From NCBI GenBank assembly GCA_012517775.1, contig JAAYUJ010000563.1, forward strand, positions 1-32,390: 32,390 nucleotides of DNA, in the 5' to 3' direction. Each line of letters starts with the position of its first letter. Position 1 is the stretch's first letter. Origin of the DNA: Deltaproteobacteria bacterium (GTDB lineage: Bacteria; Desulfobacterota; Syntrophobacteria; Syntrophobacterales; Syntrophobacteraceae). The notes under the pieces were generated by a model, which saw only the letters and a program-made list of their open reading frames with translations, searched no databases and was not told where the DNA came from. This document shows positions 22,980 to 32,100 of the stretch, piece by piece. Made by a program: the position numbers and the translations under genes.

Positions 22980-24095
22980 CTAAAAGGAATAAATGAGATC
23001 CTGCCGATTGAGCACTTCACAACCAGTGGCTGTGACTCTCACCATGTTCTCGAGTCGAACACCACCATATCCTGGGAGATAAATCCCCGGTTCGACGGTC
23101 ACTACCATATTTTCCTGAAGCACCATGCCTTTGACTCTCCGCAAACCAGGCTTTTCATGCACCGCGAGGCCCACACCGTGTCCCAAACCATGTCCGAAGC
23201 GCTCACCATACCCTGCCTTCGTAATCAGAGCCCGCGCTGCTGCATCCACATCAACGCTCTCAACCCCTGATCGGACAGCGTCCTGAGCAGCGAGCTGGGC
23301 CTCACGGACAACACGGTAAATCTCACGGAGCCAATCACTTGGCGTACCGGCAATCCATGTCCTGGTCATATCCGAGCAGTAATGATGCAATCTGGAACCC
23401 AAGTCGAGAATCACCGGTTCGCCCGCTTCAATCCGACGGTCGGACGGTACAGCATGTGGCAATGCTGCATTGGGACCACTGGCCACAATGGGAGGAAATG
23501 ACACGTCTTCGCCACCCGACTGTCTGATAAAGCTCTCGATGGCCCAGGCGACATCCCTCTCCCGTCGACCAATCGTCAGATCCTCCCACACCGATACAAG
23601 TGCCTCCTCGGTAAGGTTCAGAGACTGACGGATCAGCTCGATTTCCCCGGGCTCCTTGATAACCCGAAGCTCCTCCACCAGTCCGTCAGTTGCAACCATT
23701 TGACCTGATGGACGAGACTCTCTCAAAGCCTTTTCCACTTCCTGAAATCGGACCCAAGTCAGGAAGTGCCCTTCAACTCCAAGTCTCTCCGTACCCAGGG
23801 AGAGGAAGAGATCTTTGAGAACCTGAGGCATCCCGTCACTGTAAATATGAATCTCGTATCCGGGCGCTTGCTCTTCCGCCTCTTCCCTGTAACGAAAATC
23901 AGTAAGGAGAAACTGGGAAGAGGGGGACACGAGAAGAGCTCCGGAGCTCTCCGTGAGTTGCAGGTCATCAGCTTCGAATCCGCTCAGGTAAAAGCGGTTC
24001 TCAGGTACCGTAACGAGAAAGGTATCGATCTTCTCCCTGTCCATCAACTCGCGGAATCTGTAAAGTCTCTTGTTCACTGAATCACTTATCATCAT
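22980..24095 (-). CDS. M24-family aminopeptidase (Xaa-Pro aminopeptidase-like)
   Basis: VILDLGSRLHHYCSDMTRTW, GYGERFGHGLGHGVGLAVHEKPGLR, NMVVTVEPGIYLPGYGGVRLENMV: metal-ligand motifs of M24 peptidases. Start at 24095 or 24092. Confidence 0.95.
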   Translation of the reverse strand: MMISDSVNKRLYRFRELMDREKIDTFLVTVPENRFYLSGFEADDLQLTESSGALLVSPSSQFLLTDFRYREEAEEQAPGYEIHIYSDGMPQVLKDLFLSLGTERLGVEGHFLTWVRFQEVEKALRESRPSGQMVATDGLVEELRVIKEPGEIELIRQSLNLTEEALVSVWEDLTIGRRERDVAWAIESFIRQSGGEDVSFPPIVASGPNAALPHAVPSDRRIEAGEPVILDLGSRLHHYCSDMTRTWIAGTPSDWLREIYRVVREAQLAAQDAVRSGVESVDVDAAARALITKAGYGERFGHGLGHGVGLAVHEKPGLRRVKGMVLQENMVVTVEPGIYLPGYGGVRLENMVRVTATGCEVLNRQDLIYSF

Positions 24096-24373
24096 TCCCC
24101 CGTAATCCATGGATATGCCACGCAGCCGGTTGCTAAATCCATCGTCCAGTCGGTCGTCACAGTGCTTCTCCATCCATGCAGGCACCTCATGCATTTCATT
24201 TCAAGTGAGCTCAACGAATGATTCACCATCTCGCTGCATAGAACCATTACAAAGTGGTTGCACAATGATCCATAATCATCCCTTGACAGGCAGTGGCAAT
24301 TCCCATAGCGTTTTTGGCGGAAAAGCGATTTCTTGTCAACTTTTTGGAGCCTTAATAAAAAAAAGGGCAACTA

Positions 24374-24476
24374 TTCACTAAATCCCGGGTACTACTGCCT
24401 CGTAGGTCGGGTATCCATGGCCGGCAGCCGGGTGCAAACGATGTCGGGATTGGAATCGCGACCTACTTGTTGAAAA
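24374..24476 (+). repeat. ~105-bp palindromic REP/BIME-like element, copy F
   Basis: TTCACTAAATCCCGGG...GTAGGTCGGGTATCCATGGCCGGC...GTGCAAACGATGTCGGGATTGGAATCGCGACCTACTTGTTGAAAA. Confidence 0.85.
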
Positions 24477-24530: not shown

Positions 24531-25295
24531 ATGCTGCAAAGACTACTCAATTTATTTAGGGGATTCCTGAGTCTATTCATTTCAGGCCTTGAAAAGCAGA
24601 GTCCCGAAGCTTTGCTCGAAGTGGAAAAGGAAAACGTACGCAAGCAGGTGGCCAAGTATAATCAAGGTCTGGCTTCCCATGCAGGCTTGTGTGAAAGGAT
24701 CATGACACAGGTTACAAAGCTTGAGGCAGAAGAGCGCGAATTGAAAGCAAAGGCTGCCGCCAACCTCAAAGTGGGCAATCGGACCATTGCGGGTCAGTAC
24801 GCCTTGCGATTGCAGACGGTTACCCGGGAATTGGAAGAGAACCGCCTTCAGTTGCAGCAAGCCGAAGAAACGTATAAGAATCTCATTAAAGCCCGTGATG
24901 CCGCGGTAAGTGCTGCGAAGATGAAGATCGAAGGGCTGAGGCGCAGCCTGGATGACCTTAAAATCAAACGAGCCATGGCCGAGCTCAGTGAAGTGGCATC
25001 GGGCATGGTGACTTCCATAGGCGGGTCCGGCGATACTCTTGACCGCCTGCAGCAGATGGTCGAAGAGGAGCGTCTCATCGCAGCCGGAAAAGCCCGTGTG
25101 GCGCGCGACTCTGTGCTCGGCGCCGAAGTAGAGATGAAAGAGGCTGAAGAACAGGCGCTCGCCGAGCAGGCGCTGGCCGATTTTGCCGCTGCGGAAGGGA
25201 TCGCCCTGTCCACGGAAAGCGAACCGCAATCCAAGGCGAATGTCTCGACGGACAGGGCCAGATCGATGGGGCCCGTATCGGAAGAAAAGGAATAG
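24531..25295 (+). CDS. PspA/IM30 (ESCRT-III-like) family protein
   Basis: MLQRLLNLFRGFLSLFISGLEKQSPEALLEVEKENVRKQVAKYNQGLASHAGLCERIMTQVTKLEAEERELKAKAAANLKVGNRTIAGQYALRLQTVTRELEENRLQLQQAEETYKNLIKARD: long helical hairpin pattern typical of PspA/Vipp1; short acidic tail. Confidence 0.8.
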   Translation: MLQRLLNLFRGFLSLFISGLEKQSPEALLEVEKENVRKQVAKYNQGLASHAGLCERIMTQVTKLEAEERELKAKAAANLKVGNRTIAGQYALRLQTVTRELEENRLQLQQAEETYKNLIKARDAAVSAAKMKIEGLRRSLDDLKIKRAMAELSEVASGMVTSIGGSGDTLDRLQQMVEEERLIAAGKARVARDSVLGAEVEMKEAEEQALAEQALADFAAAEGIALSTESEPQSKANVSTDRARSMGPVSEEKE

Positions 25296-25308
25296 GAAGC
25301 GGCGGTGT

Positions 25309-27024
25309 ATGGCCATGACTGACAGTGGCACAAAGCATGGACCAAGGGAAAACGATCTTCCCGATTGGGCTGTGGAGCTCATCGCCTTATATGAAAGCAA
25401 AGCGAGCAGTCAATTCATCCTCTACGGAAATGTCGAGGATCGCTTGCTCCTGCCGGGGGATGACAGCGTGGAACTGGGGAATCTGGCAGATTTCTTGATG
25501 TGTGTCATGCTGCCCCGTTTTGATGTGGTTCTGAGCTATGATCTGGGGAATGGTATCCGGATCGAAAAAGGGGGAGAGGTTTTCGCTCAATGGCCGCATT
25601 TCAAGGAGAATCCGCAGCTACCCAAATCACCCCGCGCAGCGGTTGAGATTCTCACCCACTACTTCCGCTACTGTGGCAATCTCCGCAGGTTGAAGGGTCT
25701 GCGACTGCAGATAGGGTGCATTGTCAAGGCGGCCCACCTGGCCATACCCGCCTTCCCGGGCGGTCTGAGTTATGACTTGAATGCTATCGCCCTGCTGATC
25801 AGGGAATGGACGGCCGAAAGCCTGCTCTCCGAACATCCCCTGGTCACTTTTCTCATCACGGAAAACTTGAATGATCTGCATCCGTTGCTGGTAAACAACC
25901 CGCGCGCGTCCCACATCAAATTGCCTTTGCCCGGTCGGGATGATCTCAGGCACTGCCTTGAAGCACTGACGCCGCGCTACAGAGTGGCCCTCGGGGAAGC
26001 CGCCGCCAACTTTGATCGTTATGCAGAACAGCTTTGCGGGACCACCCTGAGCGCTATCGAGGGTTTGCTCCGAACCAGGGAGTATCAGAGACGAGGACTT
26101 GGAGCCGACGATCTTGTGAAGATAAAAAAGAGTCTCGTTGAGAAGGAATGCAGCGGCCTGATCGAATTCATCGAATCGAAGAGAACCCTGGATGATTTCC
26201 ATGGACAGGAAAAGACCAAGAACTGGTTGCGACAGGATATCGCGTTGTGGAACCGGAATGATTTGGCGGCGCTGCCCATGGGGTACCTGCTGTGTGGGCC
26301 GGTAGGCACGGGAAAGACCTTCCTCGTGGAATGCCTGGCGGGGGAAGCCGGAGTACCCGTCGTCAAGTTGAAAAACTTTCGCGACAAATGGGTTGGCAGC
26401 ACCGAAGGGAATCTTGAGAAAATTTTCAGGCTGCTGCAGGCGCTGGGACGCTGTTTTGTTTTCATCGATGAGGCGGACCAGGCCCTGGGCAGGCGTGATT
26501 CGGACAGTGGAGACTCCAACGTCTCCGGCCGCATTTATGCCATGATCGCCCAGGAAATGGGAAACACGGCAAATCGTGGCAGAATTGTCTGGATTCTTGC
26601 CTCCAGCCGGCCCGACCTCATTGAAATCGATCTCAAGAGGCCGGGGCGAATCGATGTCAAAATTCCCATTTTTCCAGCCACCAGCGCGCTCGAGGGATTC
26701 CAGCTCATTGCGGGGCTGTGTCGCAGGCGCGGCATGGACATCCAGCCTTCGCACTTTGCCGCGGTTGAATCGCTGATACCCTCGGGACTCACTCCGGGAG
26801 CCGCTGAAGCCCTTGCCGTGAAAGTCTATCGATATCACCGCACACAGTCACAATCCCTTGAGATCATCGACGTGCTGCGTGATTGCCTGGTGGACTACCA
26901 GAACCCGGTGCCGTCCGATGTGATGAACTTCCAGATTCAACTGGCGATCAGGGAGGCGAGCGACCTGGATTTTGTGCCGCCTGCTCTGCTGGCGTGGGCA
27001 AGAGATGCCGAACATTATAAATGA
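25309..27024 (+). CDS. Classical AAA ATPase (Ycf46/Vps4-like) with divergent N-terminal AAA-like region
   Basis: Walker A GPVGTGKT, pore-loop-like KWVGSTEGN, Walker B CFVFIDEAD, sensor-1 region ILASSRPDLI, arginine-finger-like LKRPGRID. The N-terminal ~300 aa resemble the non-canonical AAA half of Ycf46-type proteins. Confidence 0.87.
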   Translation: MAMTDSGTKHGPRENDLPDWAVELIALYESKASSQFILYGNVEDRLLLPGDDSVELGNLADFLMCVMLPRFDVVLSYDLGNGIRIEKGGEVFAQWPHFKENPQLPKSPRAAVEILTHYFRYCGNLRRLKGLRLQIGCIVKAAHLAIPAFPGGLSYDLNAIALLIREWTAESLLSEHPLVTFLITENLNDLHPLLVNNPRASHIKLPLPGRDDLRHCLEALTPRYRVALGEAAANFDRYAEQLCGTTLSAIEGLLRTREYQRRGLGADDLVKIKKSLVEKECSGLIEFIESKRTLDDFHGQEKTKNWLRQDIALWNRNDLAALPMGYLLCGPVGTGKTFLVECLAGEAGVPVVKLKNFRDKWVGSTEGNLEKIFRLLQALGRCFVFIDEADQALGRRDSDSGDSNVSGRIYAMIAQEMGNTANRGRIVWILASSRPDLIEIDLKRPGRIDVKIPIFPATSALEGFQLIAGLCRRRGMDIQPSHFAAVESLIPSGLTPGAAEALAVKVYRYHRTQSQSLEIIDVLRDCLVDYQNPVPSDVMNFQIQLAIREASDLDFVPPALLAWARDAEHYK

Positions 27025-27172
27025 GAATACCGGCGGATATTTTCATGCTTCGTGGTCCCCGCCAAGGCATGGGAGTCAGCCGGAAACGACGGAATCCTAT
27101 TTCTGACAGCTTTAACAACGGCCCGGTACTTGAAACCGATATGGGCACGTGAAGACTCCGGGAGAAGAGGCC

Positions 27173-28921
27173 ATGCCATCACCGACGAATCACAGCACGA
27201 CCGGCAAGATCTCCTTAAAGGTCACCAACACCTTGGTGGCACTCGCCTTCGTCGTACTTTGCGGCGTTCTGGTGTTCAATTATTTGAAGGGTCCGGAAGG
27301 AGCGGCACCGACATCTCCCGGAGCAGCTCTTCCAGCCTCATCCAAGACGGGCGAAAAGGTCCTGAACATTACTTTTTACAGCTCGAGCGCCAAGAAGAAC
27401 TGGGTGGACAAGATGGTGGAAGAATTCAACGCATCCGGAGCCAGTGTGGGTGGGAAGGTGATCCGGGTGCAGCAGTACCACGTCAACTCGGGCGAGAGCC
27501 TCGATGATCTGAAGGCGGGAAAGATCCAGCCCGACCTCTGGTCGCCGGGTGATGAATCCTGGCTTGAGCTGGCGGCTGCGCACTGGAAGAATGTCAAGCA
27601 ACGGACCCTTTTTGACGATTATGTTCCTCTGGTCAACATTCCCCTGGTGATCGCCATGTGGGAGCCCATGGCCAGGGCTTTGGGACACCCGGGGCCCATC
27701 GGCTGGAAAGACGTTGCCAAAGTGGCTGCCGATCCGCGGGGTTGGGAAGCCTTTGGACACTCGGAGTGGGGCAAGTTCCGATGGGGTCACGCACACCCGG
27801 ATGCCAACTCGGGCTTTCTCACGATCGTGTCGGAGGTCTACGCAGCCCTGGGGAAAACAGAGGGGATGACCGTCGAGGATCTCAAGAACCCTCAGGTGAT
27901 GGCGTTTCTGAAAGAATTCGAGGGGGCGGTCGAACACTACGGACTGTCCAACAGCTGGATCGACGACCTCATGCACGCCAAAGGTCCGGCTTATCTCTCC
28001 GCAGCGGTGCAATATGAAAACACCATCATCGAGGCCAATGAAAAGTACGGAAACAAACCGTTCAAACTGGTTGCCGTTTACCCCACCGAGGGAGCATTCT
28101 GGACCCGCCATCCGGTCGCGTTGTTGAAGGAAGCCTGGATGACCGGGGAAAAGGAAGAAGCCTGCAAGGAGTTTGTTGATTTTCTACTGGGGGAGAAGGC
28201 TCAACAACAGGCCATGGCCATGGGACTGAGACCGATTGCCCGGAACATGCAGCTCTCCAGCCCCTTTGACGTCGACCACGGCGTCGATACCAGGATCGCG
28301 TCCGACAAGGTTTTCCAGGTGCCGGACGAGACCGTGCTGAAGAGGATTAGAGACCTGTGGGAAGAGGTAAAGATCCCTGCCACAATCGTCCTGATCCTGG
28401 ACCGCTCGGGCAGCATGAAGGGCGAGCCCATGGACAATGCCAAAGAGGGTGCCGTACACTTTATCAGAAGCATGAAGCCCAGAGATAACCTTGAGGTCGT
28501 TGTCTTCAACAATCAAGTCACTGTGCTCTCACCCCTCTGCCCCGTGAAGCAGTGCGGGGAAGATGCCGTAACCCGCCTGGAAGGCGTCTTTGCAGAAGGA
28601 GGAACGGCTCTCTACGATGCGATCGCACAGGTCTACGCAGGTCTACGCGCGGAGGAAAGAAGACACCCGAATAGACGTTACGGCATTGTTGTCCTTTCGG
28701 ATGGCAAGGATACCGGCAGTGCCGTCAATCGCCATGATTTCATGGACTCACTGCCCAAGGGGGAGGACTTCGACGTTCCCAAAATCTATACCATTGCCTA
28801 CGGCCCTGAAGCAGACCGCAATCTGCTGGCGGAAATATCCAATCGGACCAATGCGCGCTTGTTCAGCAGTTCGGCCGAAAAGATCGCCACCACCTACAGG
28901 GAGCTGAGTGCCAATTTCTAA
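27173..28921 (+). CDS. Membrane-anchored extracellular solute-binding protein fused to a C-terminal VWA domain
   Basis: N-terminal TM (TNTLVALAFVVLCGVLVFNYLKG); SBP-like region VLNITFYSSSAKKNWVDKMVEEFNASG...DLWSPGDESWLELA...; VWA with complete MIDAS motif DRSGSM...GGTALYDAI...LSDGKDTG. Confidence 0.87.
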   Translation: MPSPTNHSTTGKISLKVTNTLVALAFVVLCGVLVFNYLKGPEGAAPTSPGAALPASSKTGEKVLNITFYSSSAKKNWVDKMVEEFNASGASVGGKVIRVQQYHVNSGESLDDLKAGKIQPDLWSPGDESWLELAAAHWKNVKQRTLFDDYVPLVNIPLVIAMWEPMARALGHPGPIGWKDVAKVAADPRGWEAFGHSEWGKFRWGHAHPDANSGFLTIVSEVYAALGKTEGMTVEDLKNPQVMAFLKEFEGAVEHYGLSNSWIDDLMHAKGPAYLSAAVQYENTIIEANEKYGNKPFKLVAVYPTEGAFWTRHPVALLKEAWMTGEKEEACKEFVDFLLGEKAQQQAMAMGLRPIARNMQLSSPFDVDHGVDTRIASDKVFQVPDETVLKRIRDLWEEVKIPATIVLILDRSGSMKGEPMDNAKEGAVHFIRSMKPRDNLEVVVFNNQVTVLSPLCPVKQCGEDAVTRLEGVFAEGGTALYDAIAQVYAGLRAEERRHPNRRYGIVVLSDGKDTGSAVNRHDFMDSLPKGEDFDVPKIYTIAYGPEADRNLLAEISNRTNARLFSSSAEKIATTYRELSANF

Positions 28922-28990
28922 TGTGCGTCTCATGCCGGCGGCCGTTGTACAAAGTCGATTCACTTCCAACACAAGAGCAAGAGAAAAAGT

Positions 28991-29050
28991 GGCAGGTCAG
29001 ATTTCCACAACCGACGCGTTCTTGTCTCTGACTGAATCCCGACCTGCTGC
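28991..29050 (+). repeat. Degenerate/partial copy of the palindromic repeat family (candidate copy G)
   Basis: GGCAGGTCAGATTTCCACAACCGACGCG...GACTGAATCCCGACCTGC retains the inner arms but lacks recognisable TTCTCAA.. termini. Confidence 0.45.
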
Positions 29051-29089
29051 CGGGTGCATTTTCATGACAACTCCTGCAGGTCGTGAAAA

Positions 29090-29842
29090 ATGAGCAGATA
29101 CCTTCGCAAACTCCTCACACCCATTCCTTTGATGACCCTCCTGACCTCGGGCGTTACTTTCTGGGTCACCGGGGTCTGGTGGATAGTCCTGCTCGGCATT
29201 GCCGCCGCAGCGATCACCACAATGCAGAGCGTCGCGGAAGAGAGCCGCCGGGGAGAAAGCGAGGAAGACCAGGCACCCTATGCACTGTCTGCCTTGGATC
29301 CCGAACTGAGAGAAAAATTTCGGCTGATCCTGAAAGAACGGCAGCGGCTGCTGTTGCAGCTTTACGAGAAGGAGAATCATGCATTCTTCAATCCTGAAGA
29401 AATCGCAACGCGCATCCATGAACTGGTGGACAGTTACTATGATCTGCTCCTGAAGCTGGAAAAGGTCCGACCGTTTATCGAGGAGAGAGCGATGACTGAG
29501 CTCAACGGGTCCATCGAGGAGCTCAAGGGGGAGATTGACCGATGCAGGGATGCAGTCGCTCGCGAAAACCTGACTCTGGCCCTGAAGAGCAAGATCAATC
29601 AACAGAAGTCCATGGTGGAACTGGCCACATACAAGGAAAGGATCGAATCACAACTGGTGAATTTGCTCTCTACCCTGAGCAGCCTCTCGGTTCGCATTGT
29701 CCAGATGAGGCTCTCTCCCGACAGCTCCATCGATCCCACCAGTGAAATCAAGGAAAGCATCAACAACGTGCTCCTGGATGTGGAGATCTCCGAAAAAGTC
29801 ACGCGGGAGTACCAGCGCATCATCAGTGAAAACGCTCTCTAA
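29090..29842 (+). CDS. Membrane-anchored coiled-coil protein of unknown function
   Basis: N-terminal hydrophobic hairpin (LTPIPLMTLLTSGVTFWVTGVWWIVLLGIAAAAITTM) followed by ~190 aa of charged helical sequence; same strand as the PspA-AAA-VWA genes. Confidence 0.75.
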   Translation: MSRYLRKLLTPIPLMTLLTSGVTFWVTGVWWIVLLGIAAAAITTMQSVAEESRRGESEEDQAPYALSALDPELREKFRLILKERQRLLLQLYEKENHAFFNPEEIATRIHELVDSYYDLLLKLEKVRPFIEERAMTELNGSIEELKGEIDRCRDAVARENLTLALKSKINQQKSMVELATYKERIESQLVNLLSTLSSLSVRIVQMRLSPDSSIDPTSEIKESINNVLLDVEISEKVTREYQRIISENAL

Positions 29843-29898
29843 GCGGCTATCCCCAAGGATTGGAACCCCGAGCTGCAACTAAGGAGACAAAGGATTTT

Positions 29899-30639
29899 TC
29901 AGAGCACCGAGCCGCTCAGTGGAAGTGAGAGGACGGAAGCATGGGGTTGCCGGTCTTTCTTGAGATAATGCTTCACTTCGCGTACCTGTCCCGTATCGTA
30001 GACGACGAGTGTTTGTGCAAAAGCGCTGATATCGGCGGGATCGTGGGTGACCATGATGACGGGGATCTTGAAAGCGGCCTGGACCCGAGCGAGCTCTTCT
30101 CGGAGCTTCCTGCGCAGGAGAGTATCCAGAGAGGAGAAGGGCTCGTCCAGGAGCAGACAGTTGGGTTTTCGGATGAGGGCCCTGGCCAGAGCTACTCGCT
30201 GTTTCTGCCCGCCTGACAGGGCCATGGGAAGGCTTCGGGCCAGATGGGAGATCTCAAAAACCTCCATGTGCTCCTGGACGCGGCGTCTGTCCTCTTTGGA
30301 CAGGCGCCACTGCAAGTTTCTCTTCAGTCCGAATCCTATGTTGTCGAACACGGTGAGATGCGGAAACAGGGCGTAATCCTGAAACAAGTACCCGATATCG
30401 CGATGGCGGGCGGGAACGTCGACCCGGTTCTTGGAGTCGAAGAGCACGCGACCGTTGAACGCGATCTTTCCCGAATCCGGAGTCGACAGGCCGGCGATGG
30501 ACAGCAGGGTGAGAGTCTTCCCGGATCCGGAAGGCCCGAACAGGACCACAAACTCCTCCTCGGAGGAAAAGGCCGCCTGCAGCGTGAAGCGGCCCCCTCG
30601 GGAGACCATGGTCTTTTCCACATCCACATGGATCAACAT
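29899..30639 (-). CDS. modC: Molybdate-type ABC transporter ATP-binding protein
   Basis: FGPSGSGKTLTLLSIAGLSTPDSGKIAFNGRVLFDSKN, LSGGQKQRVALARALIRKPNCLLLDEPFSSLD, DIGYLFQDYALFPHLTVFDNIGFGL; adjacent to modA/modB. Confidence 0.9.
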   Translation of the reverse strand: MLIHVDVEKTMVSRGGRFTLQAAFSSEEEFVVLFGPSGSGKTLTLLSIAGLSTPDSGKIAFNGRVLFDSKNRVDVPARHRDIGYLFQDYALFPHLTVFDNIGFGLKRNLQWRLSKEDRRRVQEHMEVFEISHLARSLPMALSGGQKQRVALARALIRKPNCLLLDEPFSSLDTLLRRKLREELARVQAAFKIPVIMVTHDPADISAFAQTLVVYDTGQVREVKHYLKKDRQPHASVLSLPLSGSVL

Positions 30640-30640
30640 T

Positions 30641-31411
30641 TCAGGGTTTCTCAAATCCGTGTTTGGCCAGAATCTGCTGCCCTTCAGGGCTGAGAACATA
30701 GTCGATGAATCGTTGGGCCGGCTCCTTTTTCTGAGTCCCGACAACGACAGCGATGGGATACCGGATGGGCTTGTGCTTTTCCAGGCGGCACACCACACGC
30801 ACCTTGCTCTTCGCCACCACGGCATCGGTTGAAAAGGTGATACCGGCATCCACCTCGCCCCGACTGACATAGTCCAAAGCCTGGCGCACGGTCTCGGCAT
30901 TGATGTACTTGGGCTTGAGCGTATCCCACAACCCCTCGTTTGTCAGGACCTCCTGAGCATATCGCCCCGCCGGCACAGTCTCAGGATTTCCCATCGTCAC
31001 CTTGGTGACTTCCTTCATCGTCAGATCCTGGAGGCCCTTGATCGGCAATTTGGATTCCATCGGCACGATGAGCACCAGTTGGTTGCTCACGAAATCCTTG
31101 CGCGTCTCGGTAAGGACCAGCTTCTTCTCAACCGCCTGGTCCATTGTCTTCTGATCGGCCGATGCGAAAACGTCCACCGGGGCGCCCTTTTCCATTTGCT
31201 GTAACAGCACCCCTGAGGCAGCAAAGTTGGGAATTACCCTGACGCCGGTGTTGGCTTCCTGAAACTTCTGAATGATTTCCTGGAACGCGTTGGTCAGGCT
31301 TGCGGCGGCCGAGACGATCAGTTCCTGCTCGGCGCGAGCTTGCAAGGGACAACACAGCAACAACGGAACAGCGAACAACAGCATCCACCACGCAACCGCT
31401 TTTCCCCTCAT
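30641..31411 (-). CDS. modA: Molybdate ABC transporter substrate-binding protein
   Basis: ELIVSAAASLTNAFQEIIQKFQEANTGVRVIPNFAASGVLLQQMEKGAPVDVFASADQKTMDQAVEKKLV; ModA signature plus signal peptide. Confidence 0.96.
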   Translation of the reverse strand: MRGKAVAWWMLLFAVPLLLCCPLQARAEQELIVSAAASLTNAFQEIIQKFQEANTGVRVIPNFAASGVLLQQMEKGAPVDVFASADQKTMDQAVEKKLVLTETRKDFVSNQLVLIVPMESKLPIKGLQDLTMKEVTKVTMGNPETVPAGRYAQEVLTNEGLWDTLKPKYINAETVRQALDYVSRGEVDAGITFSTDAVVAKSKVRVVCRLEKHKPIRYPIAVVVGTQKKEPAQRFIDYVLSPEGQQILAKHGFEKP

Positions 31412-32100
31412 CGATGGACCTCCCTAAGATATTGAGTTTTAAAGATCCTCCCGGAAGACACCAGCACCAGAATGCAGACCGCCGATGTAATCCCGACCAG
31501 AATCCCTGCCAGTTGGTCGTTTCCCGCCTGTACCGCATCGTATACGGCCAGCGAAAGGGTCTGGGTTCTGCCGGGGAGGTTGCCCGCCACCATCAGGGTG
31601 GCACCGAACTCACCCATGGCACGTGCAAAGGCGAGCATTGTTCCTGCGAGGATGCCCCTCCAGGCCAGTGGGAGCGATATCCGGAAGAAAACGCCGGTCT
31701 CCGAGAGACCCAGGGTCCTGGCTGCCTTTTCGAAATCGTGATCCACACTTTCGAAGGCGCTCCGTGCGGCTTTGAAGACCAGCGGAAGCGAAACGACACT
31801 CGATGCCACCACCGCGCCCTGCCAGGTGAACATCAAGGTGAACCCGAACTGTTCATACAGCCACCGACCGATCCACCCGTTTCGCCCAAGGAGCACGATG
31901 ATGTAGTAGCCGAGAACGGTGGGCGGCAAAACCAGCGGAAGGGTCAGGGCGGCATCGAGCCAGTCCCTGCCCCAGAACTGCCGGCGTGACAGAATCCACG
32001 CCAGGGCAACGCCTATGAGAAATGCCGCCAAAGTGGCCAGCCCCGCCACTTTCAGAGTCAGGAGAAGGGGAGTCACGCTTCTCATCACGGCACACATCAC
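31408..32100 (-). CDS. modB: Molybdate ABC transporter permease
   Basis: LTLPLVLPPTVLGYYIIVLLGRNGWIGRWLYEQFGFTLMFTWQGAVVASSVVSLPLVFKAARSAFESVD...RTLGLSETGVFFRISLPLAWRGILAGTMLAFARAMGEFGATLMVAGN. GTG start; 4-nt overlap with modA. Confidence 0.96.
   Translation of the reverse strand: MMCAVMRSVTPLLLTLKVAGLATLAAFLIGVALAWILSRRQFWGRDWLDAALTLPLVLPPTVLGYYIIVLLGRNGWIGRWLYEQFGFTLMFTWQGAVVASSVVSLPLVFKAARSAFESVDHDFEKAARTLGLSETGVFFRISLPLAWRGILAGTMLAFARAMGEFGATLMVAGNLPGRTQTLSLAVYDAVQAGNDQLAGILVGITSAVCILVLVSSGRIFKTQYLREVHR

Follow-up and report, generated by a model that had tools for sequence, protein, structure and literature searches.

A tail-tagged PspA and its co-inherited tandem AAA ATPase in a Syntrophobacteraceae locus: a putative bacterial ESCRT-III-type coat with a dedicated motor

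Analysis of 32,390 nucleotides of DNA from a Deltaproteobacteria bacterium of the Syntrophobacteraceae (hereafter, the window) suggests, with a probability of roughly 0.6, that a four-gene locus specifies a bacterial ESCRT-III-type coat together with a dedicated recycling motor. This proposal is built on what can be read from the sequence, namely gene content, domain composition, catalytic residues, the conserved pspA-aaa pairing and a PspA tail tag that correlates with the presence of the AAA protein. The four genes, encoding PspA, a classical AAA ATPase, an SBP-VWA fusion and a TM/coiled-coil protein, follow one another on the plus strand between genes of the opposite strand. The initial annotation of this DNA had described the same arrangement, and all of its ORFs are where it placed them. 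The relevant features are as follows.

22980-24194, minus strand: M24 aminopeptidase-like gene, left neighbour of the cassette
24531-25295, plus strand: pspA, 254 aa; PspA/IM30 family, with an N-terminal amphipathic helix
25260-25274, plus strand: C-terminal tag RSMGP (PspA residues 244-248), after a variable linker
25309-27024, plus strand: aaa, 571 aa; tandem AAA protein (Pfam AAA, 1.6e-24)
About residues 17-285 of the aaa product, plus strand: degenerate N-terminal AAA domain without Walker A
About residues 290-550 of the aaa product, plus strand: predicted active C-terminal AAA domain with intact motor residues
27173-28921, plus strand: SBP-VWA gene, 582 aa; Pfam SBP_bac_11 (5e-16) and VWA (8.6e-14)
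29090-29842, plus strand: TM/coiled-coil gene, 250 aa; TM hairpin and cytoplasmic coiled coil
29899-32100, minus strand: modC, modA and modB (molybdate transporter), right neighbours directly convergent to the cassette

Tight coupling within the cassette is limited to pspA-aaa, because these genes lie 13 bp apart, whereas 148 bp separate aaa from the SBP-VWA gene (for which an alternative upstream GTG start at 27149 is possible) and 168 bp separate the latter from the fourth gene. Promoter and terminator scans of the locus yielded signals no richer than those in shuffled sequence, and an Rfam search gave no match. A palindrome-like sequence (GTAGGTCGGG ... GATTGGAATCGCGACCTAC) occupies positions 24400-24470 upstream of pspA; the fourth gene is flanked by degenerate partial copies (29000-29085 and 29857-29874), which make the sequence look like a dispersed repeat. 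The first protein had been assigned to the PspA/IM30 family of the ESCRT-III superfamily, with a match to the family HMM set beforehand as a check. The PspA_IM30 profile does match (5e-10), its score of 39.8 bits exceeding the Pfam gathering score of 33.9 and the match spanning 3-216 of its 220 positions, and this is the one PspA_IM30 match in the whole genome. PspAs adjoining the same AAA at loci L002-L005 are 58-63% identical to it.

Comparison across genomes indicates that pspA-aaa is a real, co-inherited unit; its recurrence in distant phyla argues against a chance pairing. A genome-wide look-up placed pspA directly upstream of aaa in Inquilinus limosus, Dongia deserti, a Desulfobacteraceae MAG and a Planctomycetota MAG, whose AAA proteins are close relatives of that in the window (51-59% identity). 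A profile search found PspA-linked AAA proteins in one other member of the same phylum (G315), in 1/289 Alphaproteobacteria and in 34/296 Planctomycetota (about 11%). In several phyla, 30 loci carry the two genes on one strand, with separations of as much as about 6.4 kb in the longer operons, and PspA and AAA distances are strongly correlated (Mantel r of 0.93, or 0.76 within the closest group alone; 0/5000 permutations reached either value). PspA_IM30 proteins are encoded in 33/34 AAA genomes searched, the exception being G774, versus 39/247 genomes of the own-phylum sample. Among the 40 nearest relatives no close match to the window PspA was found, and nearest relatives likewise returned no SBP-VWA match. 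In G001, G015 and G008, the genes left of the cassette are shared up to the M24 gene, where the genomes diverge. Since these genomes diverge at this left border, and matches to pspA and the SBP-VWA gene are absent from the nearest relatives, the cassette was apparently gained by horizontal transfer, with loss elsewhere or rearrangement as further possibilities.

The AAA protein had been called Vps4-like, and that description stands in part. It is indeed a classical AAA ATPase: across 24 aligned orthologues, the C-terminal domain keeps Walker A, a DEAD Walker B and both arginine fingers in 24/24, with a pore loop of the form K/R/Q-W/Y/F-x-G. The Vps4 identity itself does not hold, given the second AAA domain, the missing MIT domain and the VAT/Cdc48 and Drg1 proteins as nearest relatives. 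The N-terminal region, which has no Pfam match to MIT, models as a degenerate AAA domain. Walker A is present there in 0/24 orthologues, although a sensor-1 and lid-like stretch is kept, and the region aligns with the C-terminal AAA over its length (probability 38%, E of 3e-4 in a single comparison). Profile scores favour CDC48 (4e-20) over CdvC (1.1e-9), and VAT/Cdc48, Drg1/Afg2 and Rix7 are the closest solved relatives. The confident structure model (mean pLDDT 84, pTM 0.74) matches Drg1, Rix7 and Cdc48 over both domains, with a differing relative domain placement and a TM of about 0.45. On the strength of motif conservation, domain self-alignment and model matches, this is a tandem Cdc48/Drg1-type protein with a dead first domain and not a Vps4 orthologue. 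The alternative name Ycf46 found support in no profile hit and was dropped, and a role in phage defence was dismissed, the domain matching IetA alone, and weakly, with no defence system found. Searches for relatives of the AAA protein found none on plasmids and only distant matches on viral contigs. A distant branch of the family was found without pspA. In several genomes of one family of the same phylum (L010-L015), a distant tandem-AAA relative lacks an adjoining pspA and mostly lies beside a thioredoxin-like gene.

The PspA tail may supply the link between the two proteins. Alignment of 35 AAA-associated and 32 other PspAs shows helix alpha5 common to both groups, as ALADFAAKEGI in the former and ALAELKRKAGL in canonical PspA. 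Beyond it, AAA-associated PspAs continue with a linker, variable and for the most part rich in Pro/Ala, that ends in a tag of consensus [K/R]-x-[M/L/I]-G, mostly then P. The tag is found in 35/35 PspAs from AAA genomes and in 0/32 others (30 from the same phylum and one paralogue each from G842 and Inquilinus), counts that rest on gene predictions from a simple custom script and represent non-independent events, the tagged PspAs being mutually related. Tail shuffles predict the tag by chance in 0.8 of 35 tails. The strict motif occurs in 23/433 predicted proteins of the loci, and 22 of those 23 are PspAs. The tag is also present where pspA lies well away from the AAA gene, on other contigs (G720 and G789); for the tagged PspAs of G925 and G986, a contig break leaves linkage undecided. 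In three genomes KTMG forms the very end of PspA, and in one PspA the tag occurs twice. An origin from the canonical PspA C-terminus (LKxKMG) was rejected because the tag sits past helix alpha5, with which ALADFAAKEGI aligns. The tag resembles the MIM tail of ESCRT-III proteins and, as a sequence feature correlated with AAA presence, would be a candidate recruiting motif for the ATPase; it constitutes the best evidence for an AAA action on PspA. To our knowledge, [KR]x[MLI]G(P) is not among the known MIM sequences, and no publication on such a PspA tail tag was found in the limited collection of papers searched.

From these features we infer binding of the tag by the AAA protein, the place where it would bind, disassembly of PspA and the roles of the last two genes. 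PspA would polymerise on the inner face of the cytoplasmic membrane and present its tag, on the flexible linker, to the tandem AAA protein, which would recognise it most likely through the dead N-terminal domain or else in the substrate channel. Hydrolysing ATP, the active C-terminal ring would then extract PspA subunits from the coat, in the manner of Vps4 acting on ESCRT-III. The SBP-VWA and TM/coiled-coil proteins would form the membrane-spanning part of the system, the former as a periplasmic ligand- or metal-sensing head, replaced in relatives by a peptidoglycan-binding SBP-OmpA or SBP-LysM head, and the latter as a cytoplasmic scaffold setting where or when the coat assembles. Several observations count against this reading: the kinship of the tagged PspAs, the AAA genome G774 with no PspA match, the distant AAA branch that lacks pspA, and, in the window, the gaps of about 150 bp before the SBP-VWA gene and the fourth gene, two genes whose family pairing differs from that in the relatives.

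The window SBP-VWA protein (SBP_bac_11 at residues 66-353, VWA at residues 405-567) has one N-terminal TM segment near residues 12-41, is predicted to face the periplasm and retains an intact MIDAS start, DRSGS, at residue 410. Its SBP half and the neighbouring ModA apparently belong to one broad SBP family (ModA-type/SBP_bac_11). At the other pspA-aaa loci examined, the anchored SBP is usually an NMT1-type SBP-OmpA fusion and once SBP_bac_3-LysM, and none has an SBP-VWA. OmpA and LysM are peptidoglycan-binding domains. The check proposed in the initial annotation, that homologues of all four genes be neighbours in other genomes, thus divides: the pspA-aaa core recurs, the exact set does not, and the four-gene set as found is this lineage's version. 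Sequence comparison shows the membrane-anchored SBP partner to be modular, appearing as SBP-OmpA, SBP-LysM or, here, SBP-VWA.

SBP-VWA proteins themselves form a separate, widespread family (23-33% identity) on plasmids of Actinomycetota, Proteobacteria and Cyanobacteria. The next gene usually encodes a small protein, and several of these small proteins have a TM hairpin; the loci hold neither pspA nor aaa. On Sphaerotilus and Variovorax plasmids (L093:4376-7906 and L094:2969-6883), telA precedes the SBP-VWA gene and a small TM protein gene, possibly a parallel system in which TelA takes the part of PspA. The fourth protein of the window has no Pfam family and a hydrophobic segment at residues 17-50. 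A search for plasmid relatives of its gene found none. TM-hairpin/coiled-coil genes recur in related pspA-aaa operons, as do anchored SBP fusions. Profile comparison of the fourth protein with the TM/coiled-coil family of those operons gave a probability of 14% when used alone and 74% when combined with the product of the gene following a Miltoncostaea SBP-VWA. As a coiled-coil control, the family did not match PspA in a profile comparison. Homology of the fourth protein to this family is thus likely, not proven. An ESCRT-III fold for the TM/coiled-coil protein was rejected, with no PspA profile match and no significant fold match for its model (pLDDT 61, low confidence). Planctomycetota operons encode two more recurring, uncharacterised proteins of about 200 and 96 aa (L072:7559-8233 and L084:4477-4767) among the SBP, AAA and PspA genes.

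Two unrelated modules might lie side by side here, with the system consisting of pspA and aaa only. The 148- and 168-bp gaps, the SBP-VWA relatives that lack pspA and sometimes adjoin telA, and the restriction of SBP-VWA to this one among the pspA-aaa loci examined speak for such a split. Nevertheless, an anchored SBP fusion and a TM/coiled-coil protein repeatedly accompany pspA-aaa in relatives, which makes coincidence unlikely, and the whole block is missing in relatives that diverge at the same left border. We consider this division rather unlikely.

The main rival to a recycled PspA coat is that PspA provides a docking site for an extractor of the Cdc48 type that acts on other membrane proteins. 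The AAA protein would then unfold or extract, for example, an ABC transporter or the TM/coiled-coil protein, with PspA as its adaptor or membrane platform; the tag would hold it at the membrane instead of delivering PspA to the pore. Cdc48, VAT and Drg1 extractors are indeed nearer to it than Vps4, longer related operons also encode an ABC ATPase and permease beside SBP-OmpA, and docking would yield the same tag-AAA correlation. Transporter genes are, however, lacking in the window cassette and several relatives, whereas pspA is the constant partner of aaa, so that we give such an extractor little probability. A similarly small chance goes to the tag being the lineage mark of one PspA clade, for instance an additional element for membrane binding or self-interaction, comparable to the Vipp1 tail, rather than a handle for the AAA protein. 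Since all tagged PspAs are related, the tag may mark a clade and serve some other function, and the Vipp1 C-terminal extension is functional as well according to Ravi et al. (mSystems 2024, PMC11237479, citing its reference 71). Against this, the motif is fixed across strongly diverged PspAs within linkers that do not align, and two AAA genomes (G842 and Inquilinus) also contain untagged PspA paralogues.

The recycled coat that we favour has recognisable counterparts. PspA is related to the ESCRT-III proteins that reshape human membranes. As in ESCRT-III/Vps4 and archaeal CdvB/CdvC, a polymer of this superfamily is encoded together with an AAA ATPase, and its subunit bears a short C-terminal tail motif, although the window AAA protein lacks MIT and is tandem and Cdc48/Drg1-like. 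With the canonical pspFABC phage-shock operon the locus shares PspA, here extended by a tail past helix alpha5. The initial annotation had reported the window to be free of PspB, PspC and PspF, and we found none of them among the other genes that we scanned there. SBP-VWA loci elsewhere, some of them TelA-associated (Sphaerotilus and Variovorax plasmids), share the fusion and a following small protein, which in several of them contains a TM hairpin. They hold neither pspA nor aaa, and their SBP-VWA is only 23-33% identical to that of the window.

The suspicion that PspA-AAA neighbourhoods might already have been noted proved right, and the pspA/double-AAA core is not new, since a neighbourhood of PspA, double-AAA, PBPB-OmpA and ABC transporter was published in 2024 (PMC11237479). 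As that article presents it, the double-AAA protein has an inactive N-terminal copy. Its neighbourhood and the window thus share PspA beside a two-AAA protein of this kind, a TM-containing partner and an SBP fused to a periplasmic domain. They differ in that the window SBP belongs to a different family, SBP_bac_11, and has VWA as its fusion partner, and in that no ABC genes belong to the cassette: PBPB-OmpA, ABC ATPase and permease are confined to longer operons, and the window has convergent modABC adjacent. The main text of PMC11237479 does not mention VWA, LysM or a PspA tail tag, and its supplements may contain the VWA variant. Relative to that main text, the new elements here are the PspA tail tag tied to AAA presence and the replacement of OmpA by LysM or VWA.

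We suggest tentatively, at somewhat less than even odds, that some bacteria possess a true functional counterpart of ESCRT-III/Vps4, in which a PspA polymer with a MIM-like tag recruits a dedicated Cdc48-type tandem AAA protein and is linked across the membrane to a periplasmic sensor or anchor that can be exchanged (SBP-OmpA, SBP-LysM or SBP-VWA). The agent that disassembles bacterial PspA/Vipp1 polymers is an open question, for which 2024 structural work suggested that chaperones or PspF fill the place of Vps4 (PMC11746142), and PMC11237479 calls it unknown how PspA regulates its assembly without an AAA protein. A tagged PspA with a co-inherited motor addresses this question and offers a simple two-protein test of a bacterial ESCRT-III/Vps4 counterpart. 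Such a test would show whether bacteria follow the logic of ESCRT-III plus AAA with another kind of motor, one of the Cdc48 type.
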